Below, in pieces: positions 3,600 to 24,828 of a stretch of 64,000 nt of DNA (positions within the stretch are counted from its first letter, which is position 1; every line of letters begins with the position of its first letter). A program made the translations under genes and the position numbers. The DNA comes from Mesobacillus jeotgali (lineage in GTDB: Bacteria > Bacillota > Bacilli > Bacillales > Cytobacillaceae): assembly GCF_014856545.2 (NCBI RefSeq), contig NZ_CP109811.1, positions 1,172,001 to 1,236,000 of the forward strand, written 5' to 3'. The notes below the pieces were generated by a model. It was not told where the DNA came from. It searched no databases and saw only the letters and a program-made list of their open reading frames with translations.

Positions 3600-3811
3600 G
3601 TTTGGATTACAGGAAAAACTGTTGAACTCGAGGCTATGACGGACAAAAATCAGCGAAAAAGAGTTAAAACTGTCCGTCATCAAGGCTATGACGGACAAAA
3701 ATCAACGGAAGTGATTAAGCCCATATAATTGTGTAAATAGAAAATGAGTCATATTAATTCCTTTTGTCCTACAATGTTATCAGCGACGAAAAACATGTGG
3801 AGGAATTAATT

Positions 3812-4996
3812 ATGACTCAATTACAGTTTAACCTAAATCTAGATCTTTTAAAAGAATCCGTGATGGATTCAGACATCGATTCTGTGATCAAAGCATCCAT
3901 TGTCCTGGTATTAAATGAATTCATGGAAAAAGAACGTGATGACCATTTAAAAGCGCGTGCTTATGAGCGTACACCTAGTCGACACGACTACCGGAACGGC
4001 TACTATGATCGTGAGCTTCTCTTAAGCATTGGAAAGATTGTGCTCAGAGTCCCTCGTACTAGAAACGGTGATTTTTCAACCACTGTATTTGAGCAATACG
4101 CTCGATGTGACCAGGCTTTCGTGCTATCCATGCTTGAAATGGTCGTAAACGGGGTTTCCACGAGGAAAGTAACCAATATCGTGGAACAGCTCTGTGGACA
4201 TAAAGTATCCAAATCGTTCGTATCCACTCTCACGGAGAAGCTGGATCCTATCGTGAACCAATGGGCAAACAGGCCACTCAATACAATGTACTACCCTTAT
4301 ATCTTTGCCGACGCTATGTATATCAAAGTAAGAGAACACAATCGTGTGGTATCCAAAGCTGTCTATATCGCCACTGCCGTTGATGAGACCAACAGACGGG
4401 AAATACTGGGCTTGCGAGTCGATCATGTGGAGAGTTTTGAAGCGTGGCAGCGATTCTTTCATCACTTACAGTCACGAGGGCTACAAGCACCAAAACTGAT
4501 CATTTCCGATGCCCATAAGGGCTTGAAGTCTGCCATTGAGAAAGAATTTGTAGGATCTGCCTGGCAGCGATGCACTGTCCATTTCAAAAAGAATATCATC
4601 ACTCATATGCCGAAAAAAGATATGGATGAAGTAAAAATCGCACTAAAAAGAATTTTCGAAGTAGCGAAGGTAAAAGACGCTAGAAAGTATAAAGATGAGT
4701 TCATCAACACATTTGGTGACAATCCAAAATTGGAGAAGGCTATAGAAATCTTAGAAGAAGGTTTCGAAGATGCCATCCAATATCTAAATGAAAAACCCAT
4801 GTTTCATAAGCATATTCGAAGCACAAATTCATTAGAAAGAATAAACAGTGAAGTCCGTAGGAGAGAAAAAGTGATTAGAATCTTTCCTAACACACAATCC
4901 GCATTCAGATTAATAGGAGCTGTCCTAATGGATTACGCTGAGGAAGTTAACAAGAGAATAATCCCTGAAAAAGAAGAGAAAAAACAGAAGAAGTAG
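3812..4996 (+). CDS. IS256-family (Mutator type) DDE transposase
   Basis: A 394-residue transposase. The start at 3812 (MTQLQFNLNLDLL) follows GGAGG at suitable spacing, and earlier in-frame codons have no ribosome site. The N-terminal region carries RHDYRNGYYDREL typical of IS256 transposases. The DDE core is visible: YIFADAMYIKVRE (first Asp), LIISDAHKGLKSAI (second Asp) followed by the WQRCTVHFKKNI signature, and STNSLERINSEVRRR (Glu). Length is normal for the family and no frameshift is seen. It is the only gene of the element. Confidence 0.95.
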   Translation: MTQLQFNLNLDLLKESVMDSDIDSVIKASIVLVLNEFMEKERDDHLKARAYERTPSRHDYRNGYYDRELLLSIGKIVLRVPRTRNGDFSTTVFEQYARCDQAFVLSMLEMVVNGVSTRKVTNIVEQLCGHKVSKSFVSTLTEKLDPIVNQWANRPLNTMYYPYIFADAMYIKVREHNRVVSKAVYIATAVDETNRREILGLRVDHVESFEAWQRFFHHLQSRGLQAPKLIISDAHKGLKSAIEKEFVGSAWQRCTVHFKKNIITHMPKKDMDEVKIALKRIFEVAKVKDARKYKDEFINTFGDNPKLEKAIEILEEGFEDAIQYLNEKPMFHKHIRSTNSLERINSEVRRREKVIRIFPNTQSAFRLIGAVLMDYAEEVNKRIIPEKEEKKQKK

Positions 4997-5016
4997 TAGG
5001 CGCTGCGAAGCGAAAA

Positions 5017-5062
5017 TTTTGATGTTCTGGAAGGGGGGTACCCCCCTTCCAGAACATCAAAA
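5017..5062. repeat. Perfect 46-bp palindrome at the 3' end of the IS256-type transposase gene
   Basis: Positions 5017-5039 are the exact reverse complement of 5040-5062 (23-bp arms, no loop, central GGGGGGTACCCCCC). It lies 20 bases after the transposase stop codon and inside the element. Flanking T and A runs would let it act as a terminator in either direction. Confidence 0.85.
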
Positions 5063-5570
5063 ACATATAAGCTGTTTAACTTGTTTTTCATAAGGAATGA
5101 ATTTACACAGAATAATGGGCTTGACTACGGAAGTGAAGAAAAACTGTCCGTCATCAAGGCTATGACGGACAAAAATCAACGGAAGTGAAGAAAAACTGTC
5201 CGTCATCAAGGCTATGACGGACAAAAATCAACGGAAGTGAAGAAAAACTGTCCGTCATCAAGGTTATGACGGACAAAAATCTGCGGAAGTGAAGAAAAAC
5301 TGTCCGTCATCAAGGTTATGACGGACAAAAATCAGCGGAAAAGAGGAAAACTGTCCGTCATCGAGGCTATGACGGACAAAAATCAGCGAAAAAAAGGAAA
5401 AATTGTCCGTCATCTAGACTTCTTTTGGAGGCAGTAGCCTGCCCTTATTCCATCTGTGGACTGGTTCCCGCAGGAAGCTAATATCATAACCCTGCCCATG
5501 TTCTATTCTCTCGCTTTCTATCATACAAGTTAAATAAGGACAAAAACACCGAAGGAATGGGGGCATAAAT

Positions 5571-6443
5571 ATGATTTACCGTCTTCTTGCGCTTAATGTG
5601 GATGGCACGATTATCCAGTCAAATGGAAGGCTCCATAAATCCACGAGGGATGCGATTGAGTACGTTCAGCAAAAAGGGGTTTACGTGACTCTAGTAACTT
5701 CAAGAAGCTTTCCATCTGCTAAAAAGGTGGCTAAAGCGCTGAAAATAAATTCCTTGCTTGTAACTCACCTGGGATCCTATATTTCTAATGATCTTCGCAG
5801 TGATCCAATTTTTGAAAAACGGATTCCCGAGGATGTAACCTTCCAGCTTGTCAGATTCCTGGAAAGCTTCCCTTGCCAAATCCGGCTTGTGCACGAAAAG
5901 TTCTCACTGGCAAACAAGTATAAATTAAACCATAATCTGCTGGCTAAAACCGTGTTTACTTCAGGTGACCCGATATTTTACTCACAGCAATTCACGGATT
6001 CTATCAGTGAAACACTCGTCAATGAGCCAGTCTCTCCTCCTAAAATCGAGGTCTATTTCGAGTACGAAGAAGATTTGAAGGATGCGCAGCAGGCGATTAA
6101 TGGAATGTTCTCTGAAGTGTCTATGTCGAGGCTGAATGACTACAGACTTGATATCATGCCTGAAGGTGTCTCGAAACTGAACGGCCTAATCCAACTGGGT
6201 GAACACCTTGGCATTCCTTTGAAGGAAATGGTCGCAATTGGCGATAGCAGTGATGACATTGATATGATCGAAGCGTGCGGACTTGGAGTCGCAATGGGGA
6301 ATGCATCTGTAGAAGTAAAAAAGGCTGCGGATTGGGTTACCCGTTCGAATAATCAGCACGGAGTAAGCTACATGGTTAAGGAACACTTCCGCAAACAGCA
6401 TCCAATCGAATTTCTTCGGAAAATGAATATTATTAAAATGTAA
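5571..6443 (+). CDS. yhaX: HAD-superfamily (Cof type) protein YhaX
   Basis: A 290-residue protein with the Cof-type IIB HAD fold: motif I region LALNVDGT (residues 6-13), motif II within VTLVTSR, and motif IV IGDSSDDIDMIE (from about residue 223) followed by GVAMGNA. Family members usually dephosphorylate sugars or cofactors in the cytosol. Here the first Asp of motif I, the nucleophile of active HAD phosphatases, is Asn9, so phosphatase activity is doubtful. B. subtilis YhaX is reported as a spore-coat-associated protein. The start ATG follows GGAATGGGGG. It lies between the repeat array and hemZ with its own terminator. Confidence 0.85.
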   Translation: MIYRLLALNVDGTIIQSNGRLHKSTRDAIEYVQQKGVYVTLVTSRSFPSAKKVAKALKINSLLVTHLGSYISNDLRSDPIFEKRIPEDVTFQLVRFLESFPCQIRLVHEKFSLANKYKLNHNLLAKTVFTSGDPIFYSQQFTDSISETLVNEPVSPPKIEVYFEYEEDLKDAQQAINGMFSEVSMSRLNDYRLDIMPEGVSKLNGLIQLGEHLGIPLKEMVAIGDSSDDIDMIEACGLGVAMGNASVEVKKAADWVTRSNNQHGVSYMVKEHFRKQHPIEFLRKMNIIKM

Positions 6444-6448
6444 ATTAG

Positions 6449-6484
6449 AAGCATGCCTGGAGTTGATTGCAGGCGTGCTTTTGC
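6449..6484 (+). terminator. Terminator of yhaX
   Basis: AAGCATGCCTG (6449-6459) pairs with CAGGCGTGCTT (6470-6480), with one G-T pair, followed by a short T-rich stretch. Confidence 0.65.
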
Positions 6485-6653
6485 TTTGTTTGGGAATATA
6501 TTGTGGTTTTCAGTGAAATATCTGGATGATTCGCAAATAAAGAAGCTCTTTTTAGATTTGATTCAGGAGGAAATGAGTTTTTCAGAAAAATGAACAGGAC
6601 GTCTATAATAATCATCGAACCAAAGCAGAAAAACTGGTAGCTTTTACACTGTC

Positions 6654-6683
6654 TTGACCTTTGAATCATAATTCTATTACACT
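6654..6683 (+). promoter_or_regulatory. Candidate promoter of hemZ
   Basis: TTGACC (6654-6659) and TACACT (6678-6683) with an 18-base spacer, 35 bases upstream of the hemZ start. Confidence 0.5.
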
Positions 6684-6718
6684 TATTGAAGCATGTTTAA
6701 TTGGAAAAGGTGAATTTC

Positions 6719-8227
6719 ATGAGAATTAATATAAAAGGTATTCAAGATGACAGATTACATCGTCCTCTGGGATTGATCGCTAATTTGTTTTTTGAAGAAT
6801 CAGAAGTAGCATTAAGCGAGACGGACCAGGAAGTTGATGCGTTAATTGAATTCGATGTTCAAAATGTCGACGGGGAGTTTTTTGTAAAAGCTGCTTTGGC
6901 GGCAAATGGGGAAACTTTTACAGCGGATGCCAACAAAGAAATTCCAGCTGGTTTAAGCGGTAAGGAAGAATTCAAATTGCTTAAAACAGTTGTTTCAAGG
7001 GCTTATTTAAAAGTGCTTCAGGACTGGACAGGAATAATTCAGAAGTGGGGAATTCTCACAGGAGTCCGGCCTACCAAGCTTTTGCATAAAAAACTCCGCG
7101 AAGGAATGAATCAGCAGGATGCCCACAGAGAGCTGAAGGAACAGTATTTGATATCAGATGAAAAAATCCAGCTCATGCAGCAAATCGTTGACCGCCAGCT
7201 CGCGGCCCTGCCTGACCTGTATGATTTGAAAAATGGTGTCAGCATTTATATCGGCATTCCTTTTTGCCCGACTAAGTGTGCTTACTGTACCTTCCCGGCT
7301 TATGCCATTAACGGACGGCAAGGATCTGTGGATTCTTTCCTTGGCGGGCTTCACTATGAAATCCGCCAAATCGGGGACTGGCTGAAGCAGAATGATATCA
7401 AGATTACGACTGTTTATTATGGAGGCGGCACACCGACATCGATTACCGCCGAAGAAATGGATATGCTGTATGAAGAGGTTCAGCAGTCATTCCCGGATGT
7501 CGAGAATATTAGGGAAGTGACTGTCGAAGCCGGCCGGCCGGACACGATCACTCCTGAAAAGCTGGAAGTGCTGAAAAAGTGGAATATCGACCGGATCAGC
7601 ATCAATCCGCAGTCATACATCCAGGAAACCCTGAAGGCAATCGGCCGTCACCATACAGTGGAAGAAACGATTGAAAAATTCCACCTGGCCCGCGAAATGG
7701 GCATGAACAACATAAACATGGATTTGATTATTGGCCTTCCGGGGGAAGGGACCGAGGAATTTGCCCATACCCTTTCTGAAACGGAAAAGCTGATGCCGGA
7801 ATCCCTGACGGTTCATACTCTTTCTTTCAAAAGAGCGTCAGAAATGACACGGAATAAACAAAAGTATAAAGTCGCTGGCCGCGATGAAATAGAAAGAATG
7901 ATGAATATGGCTGAATCATGGACGAAGGAACATGACTACGTGCCATATTATCTGTACAGACAGAAGAACATTCTTGGAAACCTGGAGAATGTAGGCTATG
8001 CTTTCCCAGAGCAGGAGAGTCTGTACAATATCATCATCATGGAAGAACAGCAAACCATCATCGGCCTGGGATGTGGCGCATCGAGCAAATTCATTAATCC
8101 TGAAACAGGTGTCATCACACAGTTCTCGAATCCAAAGGATCCGAAGTCATACAACGACAGCTTTGAAGAGTACGCTAATAAAAAGATCGAAATTCTCGAT
8201 TCTTTGTTTAATAAGGCGAAGATTTAA
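6719..8227 (+). CDS. hemZ: HemZ, oxygen-independent coproporphyrinogen III oxidase-like radical SAM protein
   Basis: A 502-residue radical SAM protein, close to the length of B. subtilis HemZ. The cluster motif is FCPTKCAYCTFPAY (Cys183, Cys187, Cys190), followed by YYGGGTPTSI and EAGRPDTI, typical of the HemN/HemW/HemZ class. The first 160 residues form the HemZ-specific N-terminal part. HemZ is assigned to anaerobic haem synthesis (coproporphyrinogen decarboxylation) in B. subtilis, although some clade members act otherwise. I chose ATG 6719 after AAAGGTG over an upstream TTG at 6701. It is monocistronic, with a promoter upstream and a terminator downstream. Confidence 0.9.
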   Translation: MRINIKGIQDDRLHRPLGLIANLFFEESEVALSETDQEVDALIEFDVQNVDGEFFVKAALAANGETFTADANKEIPAGLSGKEEFKLLKTVVSRAYLKVLQDWTGIIQKWGILTGVRPTKLLHKKLREGMNQQDAHRELKEQYLISDEKIQLMQQIVDRQLAALPDLYDLKNGVSIYIGIPFCPTKCAYCTFPAYAINGRQGSVDSFLGGLHYEIRQIGDWLKQNDIKITTVYYGGGTPTSITAEEMDMLYEEVQQSFPDVENIREVTVEAGRPDTITPEKLEVLKKWNIDRISINPQSYIQETLKAIGRHHTVEETIEKFHLAREMGMNNINMDLIIGLPGEGTEEFAHTLSETEKLMPESLTVHTLSFKRASEMTRNKQKYKVAGRDEIERMMNMAESWTKEHDYVPYYLYRQKNILGNLENVGYAFPEQESLYNIIIMEEQQTIIGLGCGASSKFINPETGVITQFSNPKDPKSYNDSFEEYANKKIEILDSLFNKAKI

Positions 8228-8234
8228 TGTTGAT

Positions 8235-8267
8235 AAGCTTCCGAAGATTCATTTCGGGAGCTTTTTT
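8235..8267 (+). terminator. Terminator of hemZ
   Basis: AAGCTTCCGAA pairs with TTCGGGAGCTT (one G-T pair), followed by TTTTTT. Confidence 0.8.
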
Positions 8268-8342
8268 ATGGTTTGAAGGGTAATTTGACCATTTTGCGCG
8301 TTTCAATAAATGATGGCCAGCAATTTCCTGTTAAATATGTGA

Positions 8343-8426
8343 TTCCGCGAAAAGGGCCGGCATTTCCGCGAAAACACCTTACAATTCCGCGAAAAACAAA
8401 CCTAATTCCGCGAAGTGGAAAAATAA
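8343..8426. repeat. 21-bp-period tandem array, TTCCGCGAA core
   Basis: Four copies of TTCCGCGAA start at 8343, 8364, 8385 and 8406, exactly 21 bases apart. Only the first 9-13 bases of each unit are conserved and the rest vary. The array fills the 318-base gap between hemZ and yhaR. A short reading frame across it is an artefact of the 21-base period. Confidence 0.85.
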
Positions 8427-8545
8427 TCCAATTACTTGCTATGAATTTCGGGTTATTCTTTAAAAAATCTAAATAGTGAGAAAAAGGTTTTTAAATATAA
8501 CTTCTCCCTATATAATAAAAATATAAGGATAAATGGAGGGGATGA

Positions 8546-9340
8546 ATGGTGGCGATTGAGTTTTCAACGGACACTGTGAAATTAGACATTAATGGACGTG
8601 TTGCAGTTCTTGAGTTGAACAGGCCTGCAGCACTGAATGCTCTTGATGTGGAAATGATCAAGGGAGTCACTATGAATCTGAAGGAAATCTGCAAGTCTGA
8701 TGAGATTGATATTGTTGTGATTAAAGGAGCCGGCCGTGCCTTTTCAGCAGGCGGTGATATCAAAACGATGCTTTCCAATACAAATGAAAGCGATTTCTAC
8801 CATGTAATGGATGACATTCACGATATGATCGTGACTCTGTACAGCATGCCGAAAGTAACAATCAGCGCAGTAACAGGTGCAGCGGCAGGCCTCGGCTTCA
8901 GCCTTGCACTCGCTACAGATTACATAATCGCTGAGCCGTCAAGCAAGATAGCAATGAACTTTATTGGCATAGGCTTGATACCGGATGGTGGAGGCCACTT
9001 CTTCATGGAGGAACGGCTTGGGGAAACGAAGGCGAAGCAGCTGATCTGGGAAGGAAAGACTCTTTCTGCCAGTGAAGCGCTGACTCTGGGACTTGTTGAC
9101 GAGGTGCCAACAGGAGATTTTACAGAAGCGGTGGAAGCTAAAATACAAGTATGGCTGAACAAACCGGTTCAGGCGATGATTAAAACAAAGAAAATCCTAG
9201 CAGAGAAAAACAGGCCATCTCTATTGAAAATCCTTGAACTGGAAAAATACGGCCAATTCAAAATGCGCCAAACAGAGGACCACCAGGAGGGCATCAATGC
9301 TTTCCTTGAAAAAAGGAAACCGCAGTTCAAAGGGAAATAA
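8546..9340 (+). CDS. yhaR: Enoyl-CoA hydratase/isomerase-family protein YhaR
   Basis: A 264-residue crotonase-fold protein. LELNRPAALNALD marks the N terminus, GAGRAFSAGGDIK forms the first oxyanion-hole segment, and GAAAGLGFSLALATDYIIA the second. The expected catalytic glutamates of classic hydratases are not obvious in the GIGLIPDGGGHFFM segment, which has Asp instead, so the exact reaction (hydratase, isomerase or thioester hydrolase) is open. The start at 8546 follows GGAGGGGATGA. It shares a convergent terminator with the small gene on the other strand. Position between hemZ and yhaQ matches B. subtilis yhaR. Confidence 0.85.
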   Translation: MVAIEFSTDTVKLDINGRVAVLELNRPAALNALDVEMIKGVTMNLKEICKSDEIDIVVIKGAGRAFSAGGDIKTMLSNTNESDFYHVMDDIHDMIVTLYSMPKVTISAVTGAAAGLGFSLALATDYIIAEPSSKIAMNFIGIGLIPDGGGHFFMEERLGETKAKQLIWEGKTLSASEALTLGLVDEVPTGDFTEAVEAKIQVWLNKPVQAMIKTKKILAEKNRPSLLKILELEKYGQFKMRQTEDHQEGINAFLEKRKPQFKGK

Positions 9341-9344
9341 ACAA

Positions 9345-9376
9345 AAAAGCAAAGAGGATTGACCTCTTTGCTTTTT
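9345..9376. terminator. Bidirectional terminator between yhaR and the YhzD-like gene
   Basis: AAAAAGCAAAGAGG (9344-9357) pairs with CCTCTTTGCTTTTT (9363-9376), loop of five bases; A and T runs on the two sides serve both directions. Confidence 0.88.
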
Positions 9377-9377
9377 C

Positions 9378-9563
9378 TTATGGATGAAAAAGAATTAATT
9401 TTCCTCTAGGAGATGTACAGCGGTGCGTCTTATCAGTGAGATTTTTTTCTTCAAGCATTCTTGATCCGATTTCCTTTGCTTCTTCATCATTGCCGGCCTG
9501 GAATGATTCGTCGATCAATTTTTCCCCGTTTGGTTCAAAGGCTGTCAGTTTGTAAGTATCCAT
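9378..9563 (-). CDS. YhzD-like small conserved protein
   Basis: A 61-residue protein (MDTYKLTAFEPNGEKLIDES) with an acidic helix EAKEIGSRMLEEKN and a C terminus THRCTSPRGKLILFHP. This pattern resembles the small YhzD-like family of Bacillaceae; function is unknown. I chose ATG 9563 because the GGGG ribosome site is 8 bases away; a GTG at 9566 directly before it is also possible. It is convergent with yhaR and divergent from yhaQ. Confidence 0.7.
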   Translation of the reverse strand: MDTYKLTAFEPNGEKLIDESFQAGNDEEAKEIGSRMLEEKNLTDKTHRCTSPRGKLILFHP

Positions 9564-9711
9564 CACAACTTCCCCTTTTTTATAAAATTCCGACTCTTAC
9601 TATTATTTTTGCATAACTTTTTTAAATATGCAAAACAAAAAATATTTTTAAATATGAAACTATTTCCCTATAAAATTCGTAGTAATTTATTGGAAAAGGA
9701 GGAAGATGATT

Positions 9712-10611
9712 ATGGTATTACAGCTTGAACAAGTCACAAAGAGATTTGGCAATTTTACAGCAGTGAATCAGCTGTCACTTAATATTCCAGAAAAAGAAAT
9801 GTTCGGATTCCTTGGTGCAAATGGCGCCGGGAAGACAACGACCTTCCGGATGATCCTGGGTCTCCTTGATGTCTCCGAGGGAAAGGTCATGTGGGATGGC
9901 AAACCGATCAATTATGATTCGAGCAGTATCATCGGCTACCTGCCGGAGGAAAGGGGACTTTATCCAAAACTTAAGGTCCGCGACCAGATAGTCTATCTTG
10001 CCAGGTTAAGAGGAATGCAAAAACAAGCTGCCCTAAAGGAGCTTGATTACTGGCTTAATCGCTTTAAGGTACCAGAATATGCGGATAAAAAGGTGGAAGA
10101 GCTGTCAAAGGGGAACCAGCAGAAAATCCAGTTCATTGCCGCTGTCATCCATAAGCCAAAGCTTTTAATCCTTGATGAGCCTTTTAGCGGACTGGATCCG
10201 GTGAATGTGGAACAGTTAAAAGAAGCAGTCGTCGAACTGAAAAATGCGGGCATGACGATTGTTTTTGCGAGCCACCGTATGGAGCACGTTGAAGAAATGT
10301 GTGAGCATATCTGTATCATGCACAAGGGAAGCCCTGTCGTCCATGGTTCCCTTAAGGAAATCAAAAGATCATTTGGGAAAAAGAATCTGGTTATCCATGC
10401 CGATTTCGATACTTCTTTTCTTAAAGAGTATCCTGGAGTGTCAAAGGCAAAAATGACAGCAGAAGGAATCCATCTGCAAATCTCGGGTGAGCAAGTTGCC
10501 GAAGACATCCTGAAAGATATCGTTGGGAAAGGGTTCATCCGGAAATTTGTTCTTGAAGAGCCAAGCCTCAATGATATTTTCATAGAAAAGGTGGGTAATT
10601 CATATGAATAA
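9712..10611 (+). CDS. yhaQ: ABC transporter ATP-binding protein YhaQ
   Basis: A 299-residue ATPase with Walker A GANGAGKTT (residues about 36-44), signature ELSKGNQQK and Walker B LLILDEPFSGLD. The C-terminal extension after the ATPase domain is typical of NatA/YhaQ-type exporters. It pairs with the membrane protein YhaP, whose start overlaps its stop codon by 8 bases. In B. subtilis YhaQP is a putative sodium (NatAB-like) efflux pump, and the substrate is inferred from family only. I chose ATG 9712, nine bases after AAAGGAGG; an ATG at 9706 is too close. Confidence 0.88.
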   Translation: MVLQLEQVTKRFGNFTAVNQLSLNIPEKEMFGFLGANGAGKTTTFRMILGLLDVSEGKVMWDGKPINYDSSSIIGYLPEERGLYPKLKVRDQIVYLARLRGMQKQAALKELDYWLNRFKVPEYADKKVEELSKGNQQKIQFIAAVIHKPKLLILDEPFSGLDPVNVEQLKEAVVELKNAGMTIVFASHRMEHVEEMCEHICIMHKGSPVVHGSLKEIKRSFGKKNLVIHADFDTSFLKEYPGVSKAKMTAEGIHLQISGEQVAEDILKDIVGKGFIRKFVLEEPSLNDIFIEKVGNSYE

Positions 10612-11857: not shown

Positions 11858-11862
11858 AGGTC

Positions 11863-12751: not shown

Positions 12752-12755
12752 ATTG

Positions 12756-17109: not shown

Positions 17110-17185
17110 AAATGCCATGGTTTGAGAATCAGAGACAATAGACTCTGTATGTTATACTGTTGCAGAGAGGAGAGGGCTGTTAACT

Positions 17186-18130: not shown

Positions 18131-18135
18131 TAAGC

Positions 18136-18172
18136 AAAAGGCCCTTCTCCATTTTATATGGAGGGGCCTTTA
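18136..18172 (+). terminator. Terminator of yhaM
   Basis: AAAGGCCC...CTCCAT pairs with ATGGAGGGGCCTTT with a small bulge; the T run is short. Confidence 0.7.
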
Positions 18173-18185
18173 TGTTTTGTCTTCT

Positions 18186-18270
18186 ATATAAGTTGAACTT
18201 AAGAATTACCATTGAATGAAGCGCCTGGAGCGAAATGAAAAGGTAAACTTTCTAGCTCAACTTATAAAAT
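18186..18270. repeat. Short inverted-repeat element with GAAGCGCCTGGAGCGAAA core
   Basis: TATAAGTTGA near 18187 and TCAACTTATA near 18258 form 10-bp outer inverted repeats around about 60 bases. The internal GAAGCGCCTGGAGCGAAA also occurs near 53000 in this window. This looks like a decayed copy of a Bacillaceae interspersed repeat. Confidence 0.55.
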
Positions 18271-18348
18271 GGCATATTTTTAAAAACCCTTCATATTAAT
18301 ACATTAAGAGTTCAAATTGGACAACCTTTAAATGGAGGGTATGAAAAA

Positions 18349-18531
18349 ATGTCAATTCCAATCTGGGTAATAGCAGTCGCAGCAGGGATCGTATTCAGTG
18401 CCTTCATGGCAGTAAAAACAGGGAAAGAAGAACGAAAAGAAGAAATGGAAAGCATTGAACGAGAAGGCGAGCTTTACATGAAGCGGCTTGAAAGAGAGAA
18501 AGAACAACGAGAAAAATCAATGGAAGCATAA
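18349..18531 (+). CDS. yhaL: YhaL-like small membrane protein
   Basis: A 60-residue protein with one N-terminal membrane segment (IPIWVIAVAAGIVFSAFMA) followed by a highly charged helix (EERKEEMESIEREGELYMKR). Length, topology and position before prsA match B. subtilis YhaL, a protein linked to sporulation. GGAGGG precedes the ATG. A strong terminator follows, convergent with prsA. Molecular function is unknown. Confidence 0.75.
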   Translation: MSIPIWVIAVAAGIVFSAFMAVKTGKEERKEEMESIEREGELYMKRLEREKEQREKSMEA

Positions 18532-18572
18532 AAAAAACACTGGTCTCCAGAAATGGAGCCAGTGTTTTTTGG
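18532..18572 (+). terminator. Terminator of yhaL
   Basis: AACACTGG-T-CTCCA pairs with TGGAG-C-CAGTGTT around GAAA, flanked by A and T runs, so it can also stop transcription from the opposite side. Confidence 0.88.
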
Positions 18573-18599
18573 TTTAATATGAGAGTTTATATAACTGTC

Positions 18600-18704
18600 C
18601 GGCCCTCCGAGGTACACGATGTACTAGACCCGCCAGCCACAGGACGTGGCGTTCTCGGCGGGCAGCGCATGTCAGGGCTGGACAAGGCGCTTTCGCTTTT
18701 CTTA
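18600..18704 (-). repeat. Post-stop GC-rich repeat after prsA
   Basis: On the minus strand the prsA stop codon is followed directly by TAAGAAAAGCGAAAGCGCC, then TTGTCCAGCCCTGACATGCG and a hairpin-rich tract containing a GCCCGCCGAGAACGCCACG / GTGGCTGGCGGG pairing. The first half matches the repeats that follow the stop codons at 20394, 28827 and 63516. It is the only candidate 3' end for prsA. Confidence 0.75.
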
Positions 18705-19589
18705 TTATTGTGGTTGTGTTTGTGCTTCTGCTTCTGGGAATTCAGCAGCACCTTTAAGGTCTTTATCTTTGATTTTAACATCTGCAGCTTCCAGCTCTCG
18801 CTTCAGAACCTCTTGAATCTTGTTTTGGTCAAGCTGAGCAAGCTTCAACTCATACTCAAGTTCGTCCTTCATTTCTTCATAAGATTCTTTTTCCTTCTTC
18901 TCTGTTACCTTAATGATATGGAAACCGTGCTGTGATTGAACTGGTTCACTGATTTTATTTACTTCAAGGGCATAAGCAGCCTCTTCGAATTCAGGTACCA
19001 TTTTGCCAGGACCAAAGAATCCAAGGTCTCCGCCTTGTGCAGCTGAACCAGGATCCTGAGAGTATTCCTTCGCTAAGTCTTCAAATTTGGCGCCTTCCTC
19101 TAGCTTTTTCTTCACTTCTTGTGCAGTCTTCTCGTCTTCCACAAGAATATGGCTTGCCTTGATTTCAGGCTTGTACTCTTCATAACGCTTCTTGACTTCA
19201 TCTTCGCTTACCTTTACATCTTTAAGCGCAGCTTTTTCCATTAGAAGCTGGTCTTTAAGGACTTCTTTTAATTCTTCTTCATCTTTTAGCTGGTTTTGCT
19301 GAAGAACTAGCTCGAAGTTCTCTCCAAGCTCTTCCTTAAGCTCGGCCACTTTTTCCTCAACCTCTTTATCAGTCACTTCATAATTTTCCGCAAGAACTTT
19401 TTGGTAAAGCAACTCTTGAAGTGCCTGCTCTCCATACTTTTCTTTCATGGATTGATAAAGCTCTTCTTTAGTAATGTTGCCTGCCTTCGACTCAACGATG
19501 ACTTCTGAAGAATCAGCATTATCGTTGCTGCATGCAGCTAATCCCATTACTCCGGCTGCAACCGTGAGGGAAATTATCATTTTTTTCAT
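18705..19589 (-). CDS. prsA: Foldase lipoprotein PrsA (peptidyl-prolyl isomerase)
   Basis: A 294-residue lipoprotein with a signal peptide and lipobox ending LAAC (Cys20), so it is anchored outside the cytoplasmic membrane. A helical chaperone region precedes a parvulin domain beginning near IKASHILVEDEKTAQEV and including GGDLGFFGPGKMVPEFEEA and SQHGFHIIKV. It assists folding of secreted proteins after Sec export. The start at 19589 (MKKMIISLTVA) lies nine bases after AGGAG; an ATG three codons earlier is too close to the ribosome site. The GC-rich repeat begins immediately after its stop. Confidence 0.95.
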   Translation of the reverse strand: MKKMIISLTVAAGVMGLAACSNDNADSSEVIVESKAGNITKEELYQSMKEKYGEQALQELLYQKVLAENYEVTDKEVEEKVAELKEELGENFELVLQQNQLKDEEELKEVLKDQLLMEKAALKDVKVSEDEVKKRYEEYKPEIKASHILVEDEKTAQEVKKKLEEGAKFEDLAKEYSQDPGSAAQGGDLGFFGPGKMVPEFEEAAYALEVNKISEPVQSQHGFHIIKVTEKKEKESYEEMKDELEYELKLAQLDQNKIQEVLKRELEAADVKIKDKDLKGAAEFPEAEAQTQPQ

Positions 19590-19782
19590 GGTGAACATCT
19601 CCTAAACAGAAAATTCTAGTGGCCGTTTTTAATCCACAATCTCTACTATAACATAATTTCAATTTTCTACAAAAAATAAGTAATGGATATTATTGGTTAT
19701 TTATTGAGATGGGCGGATATCTATACCGTTTGTTCGATGATGCATAGGATGTAGAGAAGAGAAAAAAAGGAGGTATTTGATA

Positions 19783-19863
19783 ATGGGCCACTATAATTCA
19801 GGATTTGCGTTAATTGTTGTCCTGTTCATCTTGCTGATCGTTGTAGGTGCAGCTTACCTGTAA
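19783..19863 (+). CDS. YjcZ-family sporulation miniprotein, copy 1 (26 aa)
   Basis: A 26-residue protein starting MGHYNSGFALIVVLF, consisting of a short polar head and one hydrophobic helix ending VVGAAYL. It follows AAAGGAGGTATTTGATA. Sequence and size match the YjcZ/SscA-type sporulation miniproteins of Bacillaceae; SscA helps spore-coat assembly in B. subtilis. It is the first of three paralogues within 450 bases. Confidence 0.85.
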   Translation: MGHYNSGFALIVVLFILLIVVGAAYL

Positions 19864-19956
19864 TCAACAAAATGCAAGTAATGCAGGATAGTTGCCTATG
19901 CGGATATGACATTACTTGAATAAGATATCATAACCACTTTGGAAGGAGGTGTTAAT

Positions 19957-20040
19957 ATGGGTGCAGGATACGGCGGCGGCTTTGCGTTAATTGTCGTGTT
20001 ATTCATTCTGTTAATCATCGTGGGTGCAGCTTGGCTTTAA
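19957..20040 (+). CDS. YjcZ-family sporulation miniprotein, copy 2 (27 aa)
   Basis: A 27-residue protein starting MGAGYGGGFALIVVLF and ending IIVGAAWL. GGAAGGAGGTG precedes the ATG. The glycine-tyrosine-rich head and FALIVVLFILLI membrane helix are shared with copies 1 and 3. It was identified directly from the DNA because it is very short. Confidence 0.88.
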   Translation: MGAGYGGGFALIVVLFILLIIVGAAWL

Positions 20041-20132
20041 TCTCTGAATAAAGAGTATGGGGGACATTTGGCCCCCGTACTTCGGAATTTCAATGTTAAA
20101 GCAAGTTCTCATAGCAGAAAGGAGGAACCTCA

Positions 20133-20225
20133 ATGTCTGGAGGAGGACATGGATATGGCGGCGGCTTTGCTTTGCTCGTTGTCTTGTTCATTCTGTTAAT
20201 CATCATCGGTGCATCTTGGCTGTAA
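20133..20225 (+). CDS. YjcZ-family sporulation miniprotein, copy 3 (30 aa)
   Basis: A 30-residue protein starting MSGGGHGYGGGFALLVVLF and ending IIIGASWL, preceded by AAAGGAGGAACCTCA. It has the longest glycine-rich head of the three paralogues. Each copy keeps its own strong ribosome site, which supports real expression of all three, and a hairpin follows this last copy. Confidence 0.88.
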   Translation: MSGGGHGYGGGFALLVVLFILLIIIGASWL

Positions 20226-20292
20226 ACTACTGATGAGGGCAATGCTTTCTGCATGCCTTATAATGAAGGCTAATCAAAAAACTTGAAATAAA

Positions 20293-20318
20293 AAGCGGTG
20301 AGGGAGACCTCACCGCTT
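20293..20318. terminator. Hairpin after the YjcZ triplet
   Basis: AAGCGGTGAGG pairs perfectly with CCTCACCGCTT around GAGA, with an A run upstream and a weak T run downstream. Confidence 0.7.
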
Positions 20319-20342
20319 AATTTATGTAGTTCGAAATTTCAA

Positions 20343-20393
20343 CGCCGGCAGCGCTTGTCGGGCTGACCGCAGCGCTGGCACTTTTGCATTCAG
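20343..20393 (-). repeat. Post-stop GC-rich repeat, short copy
   Basis: On the minus strand the stop codon at 20394 is followed by ATGCAAAAGTGCCAGCGCTG, then CGGTCAGCCCGACAAGCGCT, matching the first 45 bases of the repeat copies after prsA, yhaA and the gene ending at 63516. Confidence 0.7.
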
Positions 20394-20582
20394 TCACGTA
20401 TAAAGAATTTCAACGAATGATGAAATCAGCAAAATTGTAACTAAAATATTGATCGTCCTGAAAATATTAGCATGTTTGTCTTCTGGTATTTCCTTCTGGA
20501 TGCAGAGGGAGTCTGTAAGCTTGTTTATATAGAAAAGAATGAAAGCAGCAAAAAGGACAAACACCAATAAAATGGAGATCAT
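20394..20582 (-). CDS. Small two-helix membrane protein, unknown
   Basis: A 62-residue protein (MISILLVFVLFAAFILFYIN...) with two membrane segments, one at each end, and a charged linker (CIQKEIPEDKHANIFR). The start at 20582 follows AAGGAGGG at nine bases; an earlier in-frame ATG lies before that ribosome site. I do not recognise a named family. It lies between the YjcZ genes and hpr on the same strand as hpr but after the hpr terminator. Confidence 0.65.
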   Translation of the reverse strand: MISILLVFVLFAAFILFYINKLTDSLCIQKEIPEDKHANIFRTINILVTILLISSFVEILYT

Positions 20583-20907
20583 CGAAGAATCCCTCCTTAG
20601 CAATCTTTTTATCTTAAATACAATAACAAATATCTAATGAAAAAGATAGTTTTTTATACAGGCAATTATTATAGGAAGGAGGGTTATGATTCGCACATAG
20701 ACTTGTCTGATTGCAGGGGAAGGATTTGAATGTGAGAAAATGAGCAAACCATAAAAGAGCAAAAAGCGGAGGGTTTAACATTCATTCATCCGCTTTAAGA
20801 GATGATTCCCGCTTGTATCCAGCAATAAAACCAGCAAGAGGAAGTGGACAAGGCTTGTGTCTCTGAGGGGTTATCTTCCTCTATAAAGTGGCTGTCATAC
20901 AAAATTA
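20583..20907. other. Intergenic region between small membrane gene and hpr
   Basis: No convincing gene on either strand. It contains the hpr terminator (20763-20796) and presumably the promoter of the small minus-strand gene near 20600-20650. Short open stretches here lack start codons or ribosome sites. Confidence 0.6.
20763..20796 (-). terminator. Terminator of hpr
   Basis: On the minus strand AAAGCGGA pairs with TCCGCTTT across an 18-base loop and is followed by TTGCTCTTTT. Confidence 0.6.
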
Positions 20908-21483
20908 TCAAGCATACTCCTTCTCAGCTGGATCTATCTTCTTAAGTGTACCGTCTTCATCAGAAAACTTCTTGTCAATATTAGAAAAAGACTTCTCGAA
21001 TATTTCCATAAAGTCATCTCCATAAATATTGCGGACAATTGCCATAATTTCAATGATGTCCGGGAATTTTCCATATAGCTCCTTCAATGGCATTGCCCCT
21101 GAAAAAACAGCGTTACTGTCTGGTTCATAGCTTTCCATCAAAGCGAGCAATACGCCTTCGCCTTCTTCCGTAAGCTGGATATACGTATTTCTCTTATCGC
21201 TTTCCTTTTTGGAAAACTTTAAATATCCGCGCTCCTCAAGCTTTTTCGAGAAGTTGAAAGCAGTGGAAACATGCATGACTCCAAACTTTGCCACATCAGA
21301 AATCGAAGCCCCATTCAAATGATAAGCAATCCATAAAATATGATGCTCATTGATATTCAGGTCGAATGGTTTAATCCATTGCTGCCAGTCCTTCTCAACA
21401 GACTTCCATAGGGCCTTGCTCAACTGGGCAATTCTTTGGCTAAACATCATTGCTTCTTTCATAGAATAATTTTTATCTCCCAT
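20908..21483 (-). CDS. hpr: Hpr/ScoC, MarR-family transition-state regulator
   Basis: A 191-residue MarR-family protein very close to B. subtilis Hpr: [20 protein letters not shown], then [20 protein letters not shown] and [20 protein letters not shown] (winged-helix recognition region). Hpr represses extracellular protease genes, motility and sporulation functions. I chose ATG 21483, about eight bases after AGGTG; ATG 21489 and GTG 21495 are closer alternatives. It is single, with yhaH further upstream on the same strand. Confidence 0.95.
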
Positions 21484-21672
21484 TCTCATATTCACCTACT
21501 TTAATGTTCTATTTTCATTATGCCAATAAAACAAAAATTAATAAAGATATAAATTTACAAAATTTTTTGAATTTGTTAAATTCCATCTAAAGTCGTGTAG
21601 TTTTTATGTAATTATTTTATTCTGATGAAAAAATTAGCAATTTGCATAATATATCTTTCTTGATTAAAAAAG

Positions 21673-21715
21673 AAAATCCTTCCCGCCGGAAAAAAATTAC
21701 TTTAGGGGAAGGATT
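21673..21715 (-). terminator. Terminator of yhaH
   Basis: On the minus strand AATCCTTCCCC pairs with GGGAAGGATT and is followed by TTCTTTTTT. Confidence 0.75.
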
Positions 21716-21722
21716 GATCTGA

Positions 21723-22094
21723 TTATTTTTCTTTGGAATTAGCAGCAGCCAATTCAGTTTCCAATTCTTTAATTGAATCCTCAATCTCCTTGACATCCTC
21801 CTGAAGACCTTTCTTATTTTCCTCCGTTTCAAGCTTCCACTCAAAAATAGCTGTCTTTACATCAGTGATAAATGTTTGGATGGAAGCTTTGCCTTCCTTG
21901 GAAGCGGTGGCCACTGTATTTTTCAATTCCATAGCCGAATCCTTTATATCCTTGATGGATCCAATGTATTCATTTTTATTAGCCAGAAGGGTTCTCCTGG
22001 TCTCATATCCTGACTTTGGTGCTGCAAGCAGCGTTGCAATTCCTGCTACAACCCCACCTATAACCATTCCTGTTAAAACATTTTTCGATTTCAT
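21723..22094 (-). CDS. yhaH: YhaH, YtxH-domain protein
   Basis: A 123-residue protein with an N-terminal glycine-rich membrane helix (VLTGMVIGGVVAGIATLLAAP) followed by the KSGYETRR motif and a long charged coiled coil, the usual YtxH architecture. B. subtilis YhaH is a general-stress protein of unknown mechanism. GAGGTGG precedes the ATG. It is followed by a terminator before hpr. Confidence 0.85.
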   Translation of the reverse strand: MKSKNVLTGMVIGGVVAGIATLLAAPKSGYETRRTLLANKNEYIGSIKDIKDSAMELKNTVATASKEGKASIQTFITDVKTAIFEWKLETEENKKGLQEDVKEIEDSIKELETELAAANSKEK

Positions 22095-22268
22095 GCTCTG
22101 ACCACCTCATTAATTTTTCTGTATATGTTCTCCAAATGAATTGGGATTCCTCTTTTCTTCTATATTTAATTTCCTATTCTCGCACAAATAAACGTTATTA
22201 GCTTCATAGCCTTAAATTAACAGGCATAAAAATAAATTAAGGTCATGTTCAGGAAGGAGAGGAGGGGA

Positions 22269-22460
22269 GTGGGGATTTTTACAACTATAGTGTTTCTCAT
22301 CAGCGTTGCTTTCTTTGTGGGGGCCGTCCATCATCTCCTAGCGTTAAAGAAGCCAGGCATGTATCCTCCTAAGGCGCTTTTGCGAAAGAGAGCAGGGACA
22401 CTCGCAGGAGGAGGAGCCATTTTTTTACTGATTGGGATTATCTTTCACACATTCCAATAG
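22269..22460 (+). CDS. Small two-helix membrane protein, unknown
   Basis: A 63-residue protein with two membrane segments (IFTTIVFLISVAFFVGAVHH and GAIFLLIGIIF) separated by a basic loop PPKALLRKRAG. I placed the start at GTG 22269, nine bases after AAGGAG; an ATG at 22245 would add eight residues but has a weaker ribosome site. No family is recognised. It is convergent with trpP, sharing a hairpin terminator. Confidence 0.65.
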   Translation: MGIFTTIVFLISVAFFVGAVHHLLALKKPGMYPPKALLRKRAGTLAGGGAIFLLIGIIFHTFQ

Positions 22461-22470
22461 AACAAAACAA

Positions 22471-22497
22471 AGCCCCTGTCCGGTATGGTCAGGGGCT
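22471..22497. terminator. Bidirectional terminator between the small gene and trpP
   Basis: AGCCCCTG (22471-22478) pairs with CAGGGGCT (22490-22497); in the trpP direction it is followed by TTGTTTTGTT. Confidence 0.75.
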
Positions 22498-22504
22498 GGT
22501 AATT

Positions 22505-23023
22505 TTAATTGATTTCAGCAAGCTTTGCTCTTTTAAAAATGTTCGTTGCCACAGGATAAAGAATGGCCATGAAAACAGCGTTGAAGGCTGCTGCTGGTAG
22601 GACAACCGCCGCGAATAATGCAGTGAATGGTCCTGGCAGACCGATAAGGAAATAGGCAGAACCGAGGAAAACGATTCCTGACACTATGGTTCCAATCGCT
22701 GTAAGGCCAGCTGCAGTATAAATGGAAAATCTGAAATTTTTCAGCGCCATCAGGATTCCGAAAAAGACGAACGCAGTGACAGGCTTGTCGATTATGTTCG
22801 GGACAAGGCCTCCAGGGAATGTAGTAGTCAATCCAGAGATCAGTCCAGTGACGACTCCAACTAACAGTACACTCTTTTTGTCAGGAAACAGGATGATTCC
22901 AAGGAACATCATCGTCAGCATCATATCAGGCTTCATCCCAAGGAAAAAACCTGGTACCACCGTATGCAAGACGGCTCCCATCCCCACTAAAAGTGACAAT
23001 GCAACAAGATTCTTCGTATTCAT
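22505..23023 (-). CDS. trpP: Tryptophan transporter TrpP
   Basis: A 172-residue, five-helix membrane protein of the same length as B. subtilis TrpP (YhaG). Typical segments are LVALSLLVGMGAVLHTVVPG, GLTTTFPGGLVPNIIDKPV and LPAAAFNAVFMAILYPVA. The family imports tryptophan, probably as an ECF-like substrate-binding unit or stand-alone permease. The start at 23023 sits directly behind a run of GAG/TAG triplets that overlaps the ribosome site, indicating translational repression by the tryptophan-activated TRAP protein, as known for B. subtilis trpP. Confidence 0.93.
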   Translation of the reverse strand: MNTKNLVALSLLVGMGAVLHTVVPGFFLGMKPDMMLTMMFLGIILFPDKKSVLLVGVVTGLISGLTTTFPGGLVPNIIDKPVTAFVFFGILMALKNFRFSIYTAAGLTAIGTIVSGIVFLGSAYFLIGLPGPFTALFAAVVLPAAAFNAVFMAILYPVATNIFKRAKLAEIN

Positions 23024-23025
23024 TT

Positions 23026-23062
23026 CTCATCTCTCCTCTGCTATTCTAGCTAACTAGTACTC
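23026..23062 (-). promoter_or_regulatory. Candidate TRAP-binding site overlapping the trpP ribosome site
   Basis: Reading the minus strand toward the start codon: GAG, TAC, TAG, T, TAG, C, TAG, AA, TAG, CA, GAG, GA, GAG, AT, GAG, AA, ATG. The last five triplets have exact two-base spacers, and three or more further triplets precede them. Bound TRAP would cover the ribosome site. The gene for TRAP (mtrB) is not in this window. Confidence 0.75.
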
Positions 23063-23105
23063 CTCCTGCAGTGCTCTCTGTGCCTGCAGCGAAAAGCTTT
23101 CTCCA

Positions 23106-23133
23106 ATTATAACACATATTTTAATGGAGTAAA
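23106..23133 (-). promoter_or_regulatory. Candidate promoter of trpP
   Basis: On the minus strand TTTACT (23133-23128) and TATAAT (23111-23106) are 16 bases apart, with TG one base before the -10. Transcription would begin near 23098 and include the TRAP region. Confidence 0.6.
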
Positions 23134-23147
23134 GGTTTAATATTCTG

Positions 23148-24230
23148 TTAATTTCTGCTTCTGAATGAATTCATGAAATCAGCAAGTTTCTCGACGTTTT
23201 CAAGAGGAACAGCGTTATAGATCGATGCTCTGCAGCCGCCGACGGACCTGTGGCCGCCAAGCCCTGTGAAGCCGGATTCCTCCGCTTCATGCAGGAAGGC
23301 TGTAGTTAAATCATCACTTTCGAGTGTAAAGGTGATATTCATTCGTGAACGGCTTTCTTTTTCGGCATGACCGGTATAGAACCCATCACTTCTGTCTATG
23401 GCATCATAAAGCAGTGCAGATTTGTGCTTGCTCATAAGTTCAAGCTGTTTTACTCCGCCAAGAGCTTCAGCCCATTCGAGCACCAGCATCAGGAAATAAA
23501 TCGATAATGTTGGGGGAGTGTTGTAAAGCGATTTTGACTCAGCGTGAACCTGATAATTGAGCATAGAAGGCAGACCTGGTTCAGAGCGCTTAAGCAAGTC
23601 CTTTTGGATAATGACGACTGTGACACCTGATGGGCCGAGGTTTTTCTGTGCACCTGCATAGATAAGACCAAATGATGATAGCTTTAGCGGCCTGCTGAGA
23701 ATGTCACTGGACATGTCAGCAACGAGCGGATTAGGCAGCCCCTCAGGAAAGGAATGCCACTGGGTTCCATAGATGGTATTGTTCGTCGTGATGTGGAGGT
23801 ATGAAGATTCAGCTTGTATATCGATTTCTGATGTGCTGGGGATTGATCTGTAGTTGTCATGTTTGGATGAAGCGGCAGTCACTGCCTTTCCAATCTTCTG
23901 AGCTTCTTTGAGCGCTTTCTCTGACCATGTGCCAGTAAGGACATAACTTGCAGCCGAGCCTTCCTCAAGAAGGTTCATTGGTACCATTGAGAACTGCAGG
24001 CTTGCACCACCCTGGAGAAAAAGAATCTCATAATCATCAGGAATGTTGAGCAGACCCCTTAGCAAATTTTTTGTACGTTCATTTATTTCTTCAAATTCAT
24101 TGCTGCGATGGCTAAGCTCCATTACGCCCATGCCGCAGCCCAGGTAATTCATCATTTCTTTCTCCGCTTTCGCCAGTACAGCCTCAGGCAATGCAGCTGG
24201 GCCAGCATTAAAATTGAGAGCTCGTTTCAA
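23148..24230 (-). CDS. serC: Phosphoserine aminotransferase SerC
   Basis: A 360-residue class-V aminotransferase (first residues after the start KRALNFNAGPAALPEAVLA). It converts 3-phosphohydroxypyruvate and glutamate to phosphoserine in serine synthesis. The cofactor lysine lies in YAGAQKNLGPSG (about residue 197), and GGHRSVGGCRASIYNA binds substrate phosphate near the C terminus. The only sensible start is TTG 24230, seven bases after GGGGG, which may keep expression low. trpP follows on the same strand but has its own promoter. Confidence 0.94.
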   Translation of the reverse strand: MKRALNFNAGPAALPEAVLAKAEKEMMNYLGCGMGVMELSHRSNEFEEINERTKNLLRGLLNIPDDYEILFLQGGASLQFSMVPMNLLEEGSAASYVLTGTWSEKALKEAQKIGKAVTAASSKHDNYRSIPSTSEIDIQAESSYLHITTNNTIYGTQWHSFPEGLPNPLVADMSSDILSRPLKLSSFGLIYAGAQKNLGPSGVTVVIIQKDLLKRSEPGLPSMLNYQVHAESKSLYNTPPTLSIYFLMLVLEWAEALGGVKQLELMSKHKSALLYDAIDRSDGFYTGHAEKESRSRMNITFTLESDDLTTAFLHEAEESGFTGLGGHRSVGGCRASIYNAVPLENVEKLADFMNSFRSRN

Positions 24231-24406
24231 GTGAATCCCCCCGAAAATTAAATTACGGTATTTCTTTAATGTGTTAAAGTTATTATTATGCTACCAGAAA
24301 TTCAGGCAGAATTCTAATGTTTTCAGAAAAGTTTAAATAAATTTTGAAAAGTAGGAATTTCTTTACATATGACGAAAGAAACTGTGTGGACAGGCAGACG
24401 CCAATG

Positions 24407-24828
24407 TTTCCGATAGAAGGTCTATCGGACAAACGCAAGGGACCGGGAAAAAGTGTCCGATAGAAAGGGTCTAACGGACAAACGTGAGGGAAGAACGGCA
24501 AAAAGTGTCCGATAGGATGGCTCTATCGGACAAACGTGAGAGGAGAAGGGCAAAAAGTGTCCGATAGGATGGCTCTATCGGACAAACGTAAAGGAGAAGC
24601 CGCAAAAAGTGTCCGATAGGAGGGCTCTATCGGACAAACGTAAAGGAGAAAGCCGCAAAAAGTGTCCGATAGGATGGCTCTATCGGACAAACGCGAGAGG
24701 AGAAGGGCAAAAAGTGTCCGATAGGATGGCTCTATCGGACAAACGCGAGGGGAGAAATGCAAAAAGTGTCCGATAGGAGAGCTCTATCGGACAAACACAA
24801 TCTTGAAAGCCAGAAAAATGTCCGATAT
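24407..24828. repeat. Array 2: 52-bp-period hairpin repeats (TGTCCGATAG type)
   Basis: Seven full palindromes TGTCCGATAG-(7 bases)-CTATCGGACA start at 24454, 24506, 24558, 24610, 24663, 24715 and 24767 (the first has one mismatch), with a degenerate copy at 24407 and a half copy at 24819. Spacers read AAACG...GGAGAAGGGCAAAAAG with small variation. The gap between serC and hit (about 640 bases) holds nothing else. Array 1 has the same arm, loop and period lengths. Confidence 0.92.

Follow-up and report, generated by a model that had tools for sequence, protein, structure and literature searches.

Palindrome Arrays in the Window

The 64-kb stretch of the Mesobacillus jeotgali chromosome analyzed here (the window, with positions counted from its first letter) carries three arrays of tandem repeats, in which palindromes alternate with purine-rich spacers. 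Two of them had been described in a sequence-only reading of this DNA, and both were confirmed in place and geometry: a palindrome of 27 bp and a spacer of 25 bp form a unit with a period of 52 bp. For the first array, the span of 3636–5413 previously given does contain repeats, but most of it is a transposon that splits a single array in two. The left part of array 1 (3630–3712, + strand, TC class) consists of a right half-palindrome (ATGACGGACA), one full palindrome and spacers. The right part (5127–5414, + strand) contains 5.6 units of 52 bp and ends with a left half-palindrome; Tandem Repeats Finder (TRF) gave a 93% match without indels, and the purine-rich strand is the + strand, which is the leading strand there. 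Array 2 (24405–24828, + strand, AT class, TGTCCGATAG) has 8 spacers at 52-bp spacing and was detected by TRF as 7.5 copies at 24409–24796. Its purine-rich strand is also the + strand, although both neighboring genes are transcribed leftward. The third array (49670–49815, + strand) belongs to the same kind but has a different palindrome (ATACCCTTAT / ATAAGGGT), a period of 53 bp and 2.8 copies, and the same palindrome family was found in arrays elsewhere in the genome.

Array 1 begins about 30 bp past the intrinsic terminator (CTCCCGCC..GGCGGGAG and a T run, 3566–3599, + strand, recognized by reading the sequence) of a YlbF/YmcA family gene (3194–3553, + strand, PF06133), and is followed by a gene for a HAD-type hydrolase (5571–6443, + strand, PF08282). 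Array 2 lies between a serC-like class-V aminotransferase gene (23148–24230, − strand, assigned by PF00266 and by its relatives) and a gene for a HIT-domain protein (24876–25295, − strand, PF01230), whose intrinsic terminator was read at 24850–24876 (− strand). In many of the arrays printed out, a right half-palindrome comes first and a left half-palindrome last, so that the unit may alternatively be viewed as a spacer with inverted arms on both sides. The spacers within one array are near-copies of each other and not unique, and an array of clustered regularly interspaced short palindromic repeats (CRISPR) was rejected on this ground.

Distribution of the Arrays

Arrays of this design were found elsewhere in the genome and in related species, and the sequence-only reading was right that one geometry recurs with several sequences. 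The exact pattern TGTCCG-N15-CGGACA occurs 133 times in the M. jeotgali genome and not once for the reversed-pattern control, which places the arrays far above chance. Counting M. jeotgali itself, the palindrome was present in 20 of the 21 genomes of the genus, with up to 250 matches each, the number found in G012; G011 had none and one genome had 4. Across the family, at least one match was found in 108 of the 193 genomes (M. jeotgali included), distributed over 15 of the 25 genera, some of these at chance level. At least five matches were found in 67 of the 193 (hand count of the table), and the reversed control gave 4 or fewer throughout. When 398 genomes of the class were sampled, the counts outside the family ranged from 0 to 5, and among the places listed from this sample a unit spacing of 52–53 bp was seen only in G569, a member of the same order.

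Two further loci outside the family were noticed. In Ureibacillus acetophenoni, about 700 bp beside serC (6762–7468 of the extracted locus) are occupied by arrays of the TGTCCTT..GAAAGACA type with the same 27 + 25 bp geometry. In a genome of another family (G339:C14:75840-76518), TGTCCGAAT palindromes are spaced at 222, 222, and 208 bp, which is a different arrangement. Three array queries found no match in plasmid records and two found none in phage records at the E limits set, and a plasmid or phage origin of the arrays was rejected on these results.

Conservation of the Repeat Unit

Substitutions were profiled over about 436 units from 60 of the 88 arrays (period 52, consensus with TGTC..GACA), each unit being aligned to the consensus of its own array. 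They amounted to 0.5–1.2% at TGTC, 0.5–2.1% at GACA and 0.4–1.1% at the inner dinucleotides, and directly outside the palindrome to 2–3%, or 2–6% over the few bases there. The two CG positions of the stem varied at 7–12%, about the level of the loop (9–14%, positions 10–17), and the maximum of 19% was reached in mid-spacer. As derived from this profile, TGTC and GACA are on average about 15 times less variable than the mid-spacer. Low values at the half-sites and their flanks, together with high values in the stem CG, the loop and the mid-spacer, point to two double-stranded half-sites of about 13 bp each, and neither to a stem nor to a neutral repeat.

The sequence-only reading had taken matched changes in the two arms as a sign that the hairpin form is selected or copied. 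Its suspicion of selection agrees with the conservation pattern, but the hairpin does not. Between arrays of different class the arms do match: the class-defining bases 7–8 agree in both, which gives rise to the apparent compensation. Inside arrays, double changes were found as often as expected for independent substitutions (24 versus 23.7 at position 5, and 11 versus 10.1 at position 6). Moreover, 211 of the 227 units of the AA class, the largest one, carry a fixed G.G or C.C mismatch in the arm (positions 9/19). Arm changes uncompensated between copies, which that reading had itself named as evidence against the hairpin, were thus what the arrays contain. With pairing not kept, stem CG positions variable and bases outside the stem conserved, selection of the hairpin was rejected. 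An inner-arm pairing that differs only from class to class is expected for two copies of a half-site.

The arrays are also homogeneous. All 48 arrays with at least three units were pure in class, under a rule that pools units by AA or TC, whichever arm carries it, and by AT or TT in the left arm. The majority of the AA-class spacers lack the initial AA. Two likenesses to known sites were considered and set aside. The CCGAAC of the AA-class half-site resembles the core of the Bacillus subtilis PurR box and the LexA half-site, and this was dropped because the TC and AT classes do not have CCGAAC. The lox/FRT geometry (13-bp arms with 21 bp between arm centers) is similar, but the central bases vary between neighboring units (9–14% at each of positions 10–17), and recombination between units would fit this poorly.

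Array Periods and Half-Site Spacing

The periods of noncoding tandem repeats were determined with TRF in 20-kb stretches of single-contig family genomes, which were cut out at fixed coordinates regardless of arrays (1.6 Mb in total, half of it from Mesobacillus). After exclusion of the arrays flagged as coding (3 and 3 in Mesobacillus, 2 and 2 in other genera), 51 of the 56 arrays fell into three groups, with periods of 20–21 bp (19 arrays), 41–42 bp (5 arrays), and 51–53 bp (27 arrays); the remaining five had periods of 15, 16, 39, 45, and 77 bp. A count made independently of TRF, of 8-mers in noncoding DNA that match themselves at a given offset, peaked at 52, 104, 21, and 42 bp. The three groups correspond to about two, four and five helical turns, and the earlier remark that a 52-bp period is close to five turns of DNA looks right and is supported by this quantization. 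Arrays of 51–53 bp made up 0.88% of the sampled Mesobacillus sequence.

The families of 51–53 bp have palindromes that are unlike in sequence (TGTCCG, TGTCA, GGTAAA, ATAAGGGTAC, GGTCAC, GGTAAC, GGGCTC, and others). In many of them, inverted half-sites stand 20–21 bp apart over the palindrome and 30–32 bp apart over the spacer; in the TGTC families these distances are 21 and 31 bp. Such distances bring all half-sites onto one face of the DNA. In the M. jeotgali genome, 126 of the 128 palindromes kept one length and 113 of the 134 spacers measured 25 bp (Fisher p = 4e-5).

The repeats of 20–21 bp, or two turns, form a second noncoding group with motifs such as TTTATTCGCAAA, TGGTCGAATAAAT, and TTCGCCAATAAAA, which look related to each other. 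Examples were seen in L149 (11825–11913), L032 (7824–7916), and L039 (1001–1097), and also in L194, L195, and L239.

Array Turnover at Orthologous Sites

The site beside serC, where array 2 lies, was compared between species; the named relatives reached through this gene put the genome within Mesobacillus or beside it. By hand count it holds 8 spacers in M. jeotgali, 3 in Bacillus sp. ISL-45, 6 in Bacillus sp. ISL-41 and 2 in M. selenatarsenatis, and it carries no array in M. subterraneus. The 17 array sites listed for another Mesobacillus genome, G020, were all located in M. jeotgali, and 13 of them carry a TGTCCG-type array there. One of the 13 has an array of another class after the same terminator (TC in G020, AT in M. 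jeotgali) and one has a weak array of three units. The other four sites carry an unrelated ATAAGGGTAC array, a TTTATTCGCAAA repeat recurring about every 21 bp, a single decayed unit, and nothing. According to this comparison, sites persist and their sequences can change.

A varying copy number at one and the same site, as beside serC, and homogeneous, class-pure arrays would also be produced by neutral minisatellites, that is, tandem duplications without function whose length changes by slippage. Repeats of this kind should decay evenly, yet TGTC and GACA are much less variable than the mid-spacer, and their periods should be spread out, yet 51 of the 56 arrays lie at three values. A neutral origin is therefore considered improbable.

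Polarity and Gene Context

The replication arms of M. jeotgali were inferred from the GC skew, whose sign changes between about 2.5 and 2.6 Mb. A script took open frames of 80 aa or longer as the neighboring genes, and three arrays had the inserted transposase itself as a neighbor. The purine-rich strand of the spacer was the leading strand in 39 of the 43 arrays, as compared with 65% of ordinary intergenic gaps being purine-rich on the leading strand (p = 1e-4). This was observed in 15/15 arrays between convergent genes, 4/4 in head-on, 4/4 in divergent, and 16/20 in co-directional contexts. Regardless of gene context, the polarity tracks replication and not transcription. All 100 sites listed for G020 (17 arrays in the first 1.4 Mb) point in the same direction, with a positive local GC skew at each of the 17 arrays. 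In the fixed-coordinate sample, 20 of the 23 arrays of 51–53 bp with a clear GC skew agree in polarity.

Arrays were enriched between convergent open frames (15 of 43, versus 24 of 155 gaps; Fisher p = 0.008) and several of them are preceded by intrinsic terminators. Both observations would fit elements that act at the level of RNA, as hairpins at the 3′ ends of transcripts which stop transcription or protect messages. Against this, the purine-rich strand of the four head-on arrays is still the leading one, so that polarity follows replication, and the pairing is not maintained. The window also had no Rfam match at gathering thresholds, and a known structured RNA family was rejected for the window on that result. 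A function in RNA is thus regarded as very unlikely.

The alignment of polarity with replication, the palindromes, the intergenic placement and the patchy occurrence between species are likewise what would be expected from selfish repeats whose spread depends on a transposase recognizing hairpins in the single-stranded template of the lagging strand, like the Y1 enzymes of the repetitive extragenic palindrome (REP) and REP-associated tyrosine transposase (RAYT) systems, with the polarity set by the insertion site. This, too, seems unlikely, although less so than a role in RNA, because the Y1 transposase domain PF01797 (E 0.001) was unmatched in genomes with 204 (G016) and 227 (G020) palindromes; it was also unmatched in G019, which has 25, and a genome with four PF01797 matches (G011) had no palindrome at all. 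The only Y1 gene of M. jeotgali stands beside a different palindrome, GGGGGTCAGACCCCC, stem pairing is not conserved, and the helical periods would be left without a reason. Mobilization by a Y1/RAYT enzyme was rejected on the array-rich genomes without a PF01797 match and on the position of this one gene.

That gene, the sole Y1 transposase gene found, lies in a locus at 4306353–4309679 of the genome. It occupies 1297–1863 of the locus and adjoins the GGGGGTCAGACCCCC palindrome (1231–1284), and a related GGGGGTCTGACCCCC palindrome (2959–3007) lies about 1.1 kb off, past another gene. This looks like a RAYT–REP arrangement with a different repeat.

IS256-Family Elements in the Arrays

The transposon that splits array 1 is an insertion sequence of 1414 bp (3713–5126, + strand), recognized by its transposase, its ends and its target duplication. 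The open reading frame at 3764–4996 matched PF00872 (Mutator/IS256 type) with an E value of 2.4e-124, and the duplicated 8 bp (ACGGAAGT, 3705–3712 and 5127–5134) lie in mid-spacer, at unit positions 35–42. The IS256 family is marked by a Mutator-type transposase, terminal inverted repeats and a target duplication of 8–9 bp; the element agrees with this, its ends and an 8-bp duplication being recognized in all six complete copies. An internal inverted repeat was noticed near its right end (window 5017–5062; element 1298–1343, matching both strands).

A DNA search with this element, which more distant elements would escape, detected three identical copies in the M. jeotgali genome and three relatives with 70% identity. 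All six complete copies are inserted in arrays of 52–53 bp with six different repeat sequences, each with its 8-bp duplication, and a 70-bp remnant lies beside a further 52-bp array. The search was extended to the family, with one copy taken per genome and two candidates scored per genome, so that absence from a genome is not secure. From the 29 copies in relatives, 27 could be tested; L280 (a partial match) and L293 (a flank of N) were excluded. Ten of the 27 abut arrays of 52–53 bp, and another 3 are found less than 30 bp from arrays with a 20-bp period. At four other loci (L274, L275, L278, and L292), palindromes, or a pair of units separated by about 51 bp, were seen by eye and left uncounted. 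When the array was of the TGTC or GTCCGAA type, the insertion was located at unit positions 35–45, in mid-spacer, in six of six cases (three in M. jeotgali, and L277, L288, and L289).

The three copies near arrays with a 20-bp period are L285, L286, and L291 (in G047, G045, and G090), and they hint at an element that may recognize arrays of 20–21 bp as well as those of 52 bp. A dispersed repeat (GAAAAGCGGAAGCGAC..., GAGGAGCTAGGAGCCGCAGCTAGAC) was also observed in two species (L029 2540–2782, L038 1900–1968, and L127 5112–5178), and is probably a small mobile element.

Insertion of all six complete copies and the remnant in M. jeotgali, and of 13 of the 27 copies in relatives, in or near arrays might mean that the phased palindromic DNA is read by a transposase and not by a host protein, the arrays being passive and harmless landing sites. 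The array-rich genomes G012, G016, and G020 were unmatched by the element, and if its absence is real (two candidates per genome being scored, it is not secure), the element would be unneeded for the upkeep of the arrays. Its ends are also unlike the half-sites. We judge a transposase as the only reader of the arrays to be unlikely.

Interpretation of the Arrays

The best explanation of these results, in which we place a middling confidence, is that the arrays are rows of double-stranded half-sites for one or more chromosomal DNA-binding proteins, helically phased on one face of the DNA. In the TGTC families, a half-site would comprise about 13 bp, with an A-rich flank, TGTC, two loose bases and the two class-defining bases. 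Inverted half-sites would alternate at 21 bp (two turns) and at 31 bp (three turns, looser in M. jeotgali), giving 52 bp or five turns, and all bound subunits would then sit on the same face. The polarity of the unit, given by its purine-rich spacer, would be aligned with replication. Units would be copied within an array and lost, which would keep arrays uniform and still let their number shift between species, together with their class at some sites. The IS256-family elements may recognize the arrays as such, regardless of sequence, and use them as landing pads, with insertion in mid-spacer in TGTC arrays. What the genomes show directly is how the units are laid out, conserved and oriented, and where the elements are inserted. 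That a protein binds them is inferred from the conservation and the spacing, and how far it would occupy them in vivo, or take part in organizing or replicating the chromosome, is a further step of inference.

Several results weigh against this explanation. Strict phasing should exclude irregular spacers, but 20 of the 134 spacers in M. jeotgali have lengths of 19–26 bp other than 25 bp, and one more has 43 bp. The contrast between a rigid palindrome and a looser spacer is not general either, since in the other Mesobacillus stretches, including those of G020, 123/123 palindromes and 133/136 spacers were of fixed length. Half-sites are about 1.5 or 2.5 turns apart in some 52-bp families (L092, L222, and in L167 the second array), and no clear palindrome is seen in a few families of 51–53 bp. 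Outside the family, where the samples are smaller, the periods are less quantized: 380 kb yielded 4 noncoding arrays with periods of 20, 21, 25, and 52 bp (L220, picked for its known array, was excluded), and 671 kb around serC yielded 12, with periods of 18 (2), 20, 21, 24 (2), 27, 28, 42, and 52 bp (3). The polarity has exceptions (4 of the 43 arrays in M. jeotgali and 3 of the 23 in the fixed-coordinate sample) and is weak or lacking in the arrays of 20–21 bp (11/18). As for the insertions, the test applied placed 14 of the 27 copies in relatives away from arrays, and in the two GGGCAC-type arrays of M. jeotgali the duplicated bases lie inside the palindrome and not in the linker. One of the 17 orthologous sites is free of arrays in M. 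jeotgali, so no single array is essential. Finally, several proteins, or one protein that reads the shape of DNA, would be required to bind the three site classes and the many unrelated palindromes.

A broader proposal is put forward tentatively, as it is more doubtful than the protein-binding explanation itself. The Bacillaceae may possess a standardized scaffold of intergenic arrays, in which the sequence is free but the geometry is fixed, as is a polarity imposed by the replication fork, and the IS256-family elements would detect the property that the arrays have in common. Half-sites may stand one, two, three, or four turns apart in units of two or five turns, and unrelated arrays may occupy the same site in sister species. 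If true, the arrays would constitute a new type of chromosome-architecture element. Hairpins or selfish debris are the usual explanations for intergenic repeats, whereas here the repeats would be double-stranded sites set by the pitch of the helix, with the polarity of replication, in a large bacterial family. Additionally, a transposon that locates arrays of many sequences points to a way in which some elements of the IS256 family may insert without harm.

Comparison With Known Systems

The arrays were assigned to the intergenic palindromic tandem arrays, the nearest known ones being the Staphylococcus aureus repeat (STAR) and the REP sequences with their composite bacterial interspersed mosaic elements (BIME). 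Two groups of intergenic repeats in other Gram-positive genomes, bcr of the Bacillus cereus group and the mycobacterial interspersed repetitive units (MIRU), were compared by description. MIRU have a unit of about 53 bp, but their described orientation follows genes and not replication. The sequences that orient FtsK and SpoIIIE (KOPS and SRS) are similar to the arrays in being motifs found along the whole chromosome, on a strand that follows replication; they are short single motifs, unlike the palindromic array unit of 52 bp. The iteron and partition-site arrays of plasmids share tandem protein sites, periods of about 21 bp and helical phasing. In contrast to them, the arrays described here number dozens on the chromosome and have many sequences, and the queries were unmatched in plasmid or phage records.

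REP and BIME, with their RAYT enzymes, are likewise intergenic and palindromic, occur in tandem groups, are common between convergent genes and serve as targets for some insertion sequences. Intergenic placement and enrichment between convergent genes were also found here. The spread of REP needs a hairpin and a Y1 enzyme, while in the present arrays stem pairing is neither compensated nor conserved, the Y1 gene of M. jeotgali is not flanked by the array palindrome, and PF01797 had no match in two genomes that are among the richest in arrays.

STAR of S. aureus forms intergenic tandem arrays with a palindromic core, units of about 50-odd bp and locus-specific spacers, and has no assigned function. 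The STAR core, a direct repeat of the TNTGTTGNGGCCCN type, was not seen by eye in the 60 TGTC-type consensus units, and STAR is not known to have a replication polarity, a helical half-site layout or targeting by insertion sequences. STAR has one core sequence, whereas many unrelated cores are found here. The two resemble each other in the palindromic core, the recurring spacer, the length of the unit and the copy number, which varies between strains in STAR; in the same manner, the arrays described here expand and contract at fixed intergenic loci, as seen beside serC, from 8 spacers in M. jeotgali to an empty site in M. subterraneus.

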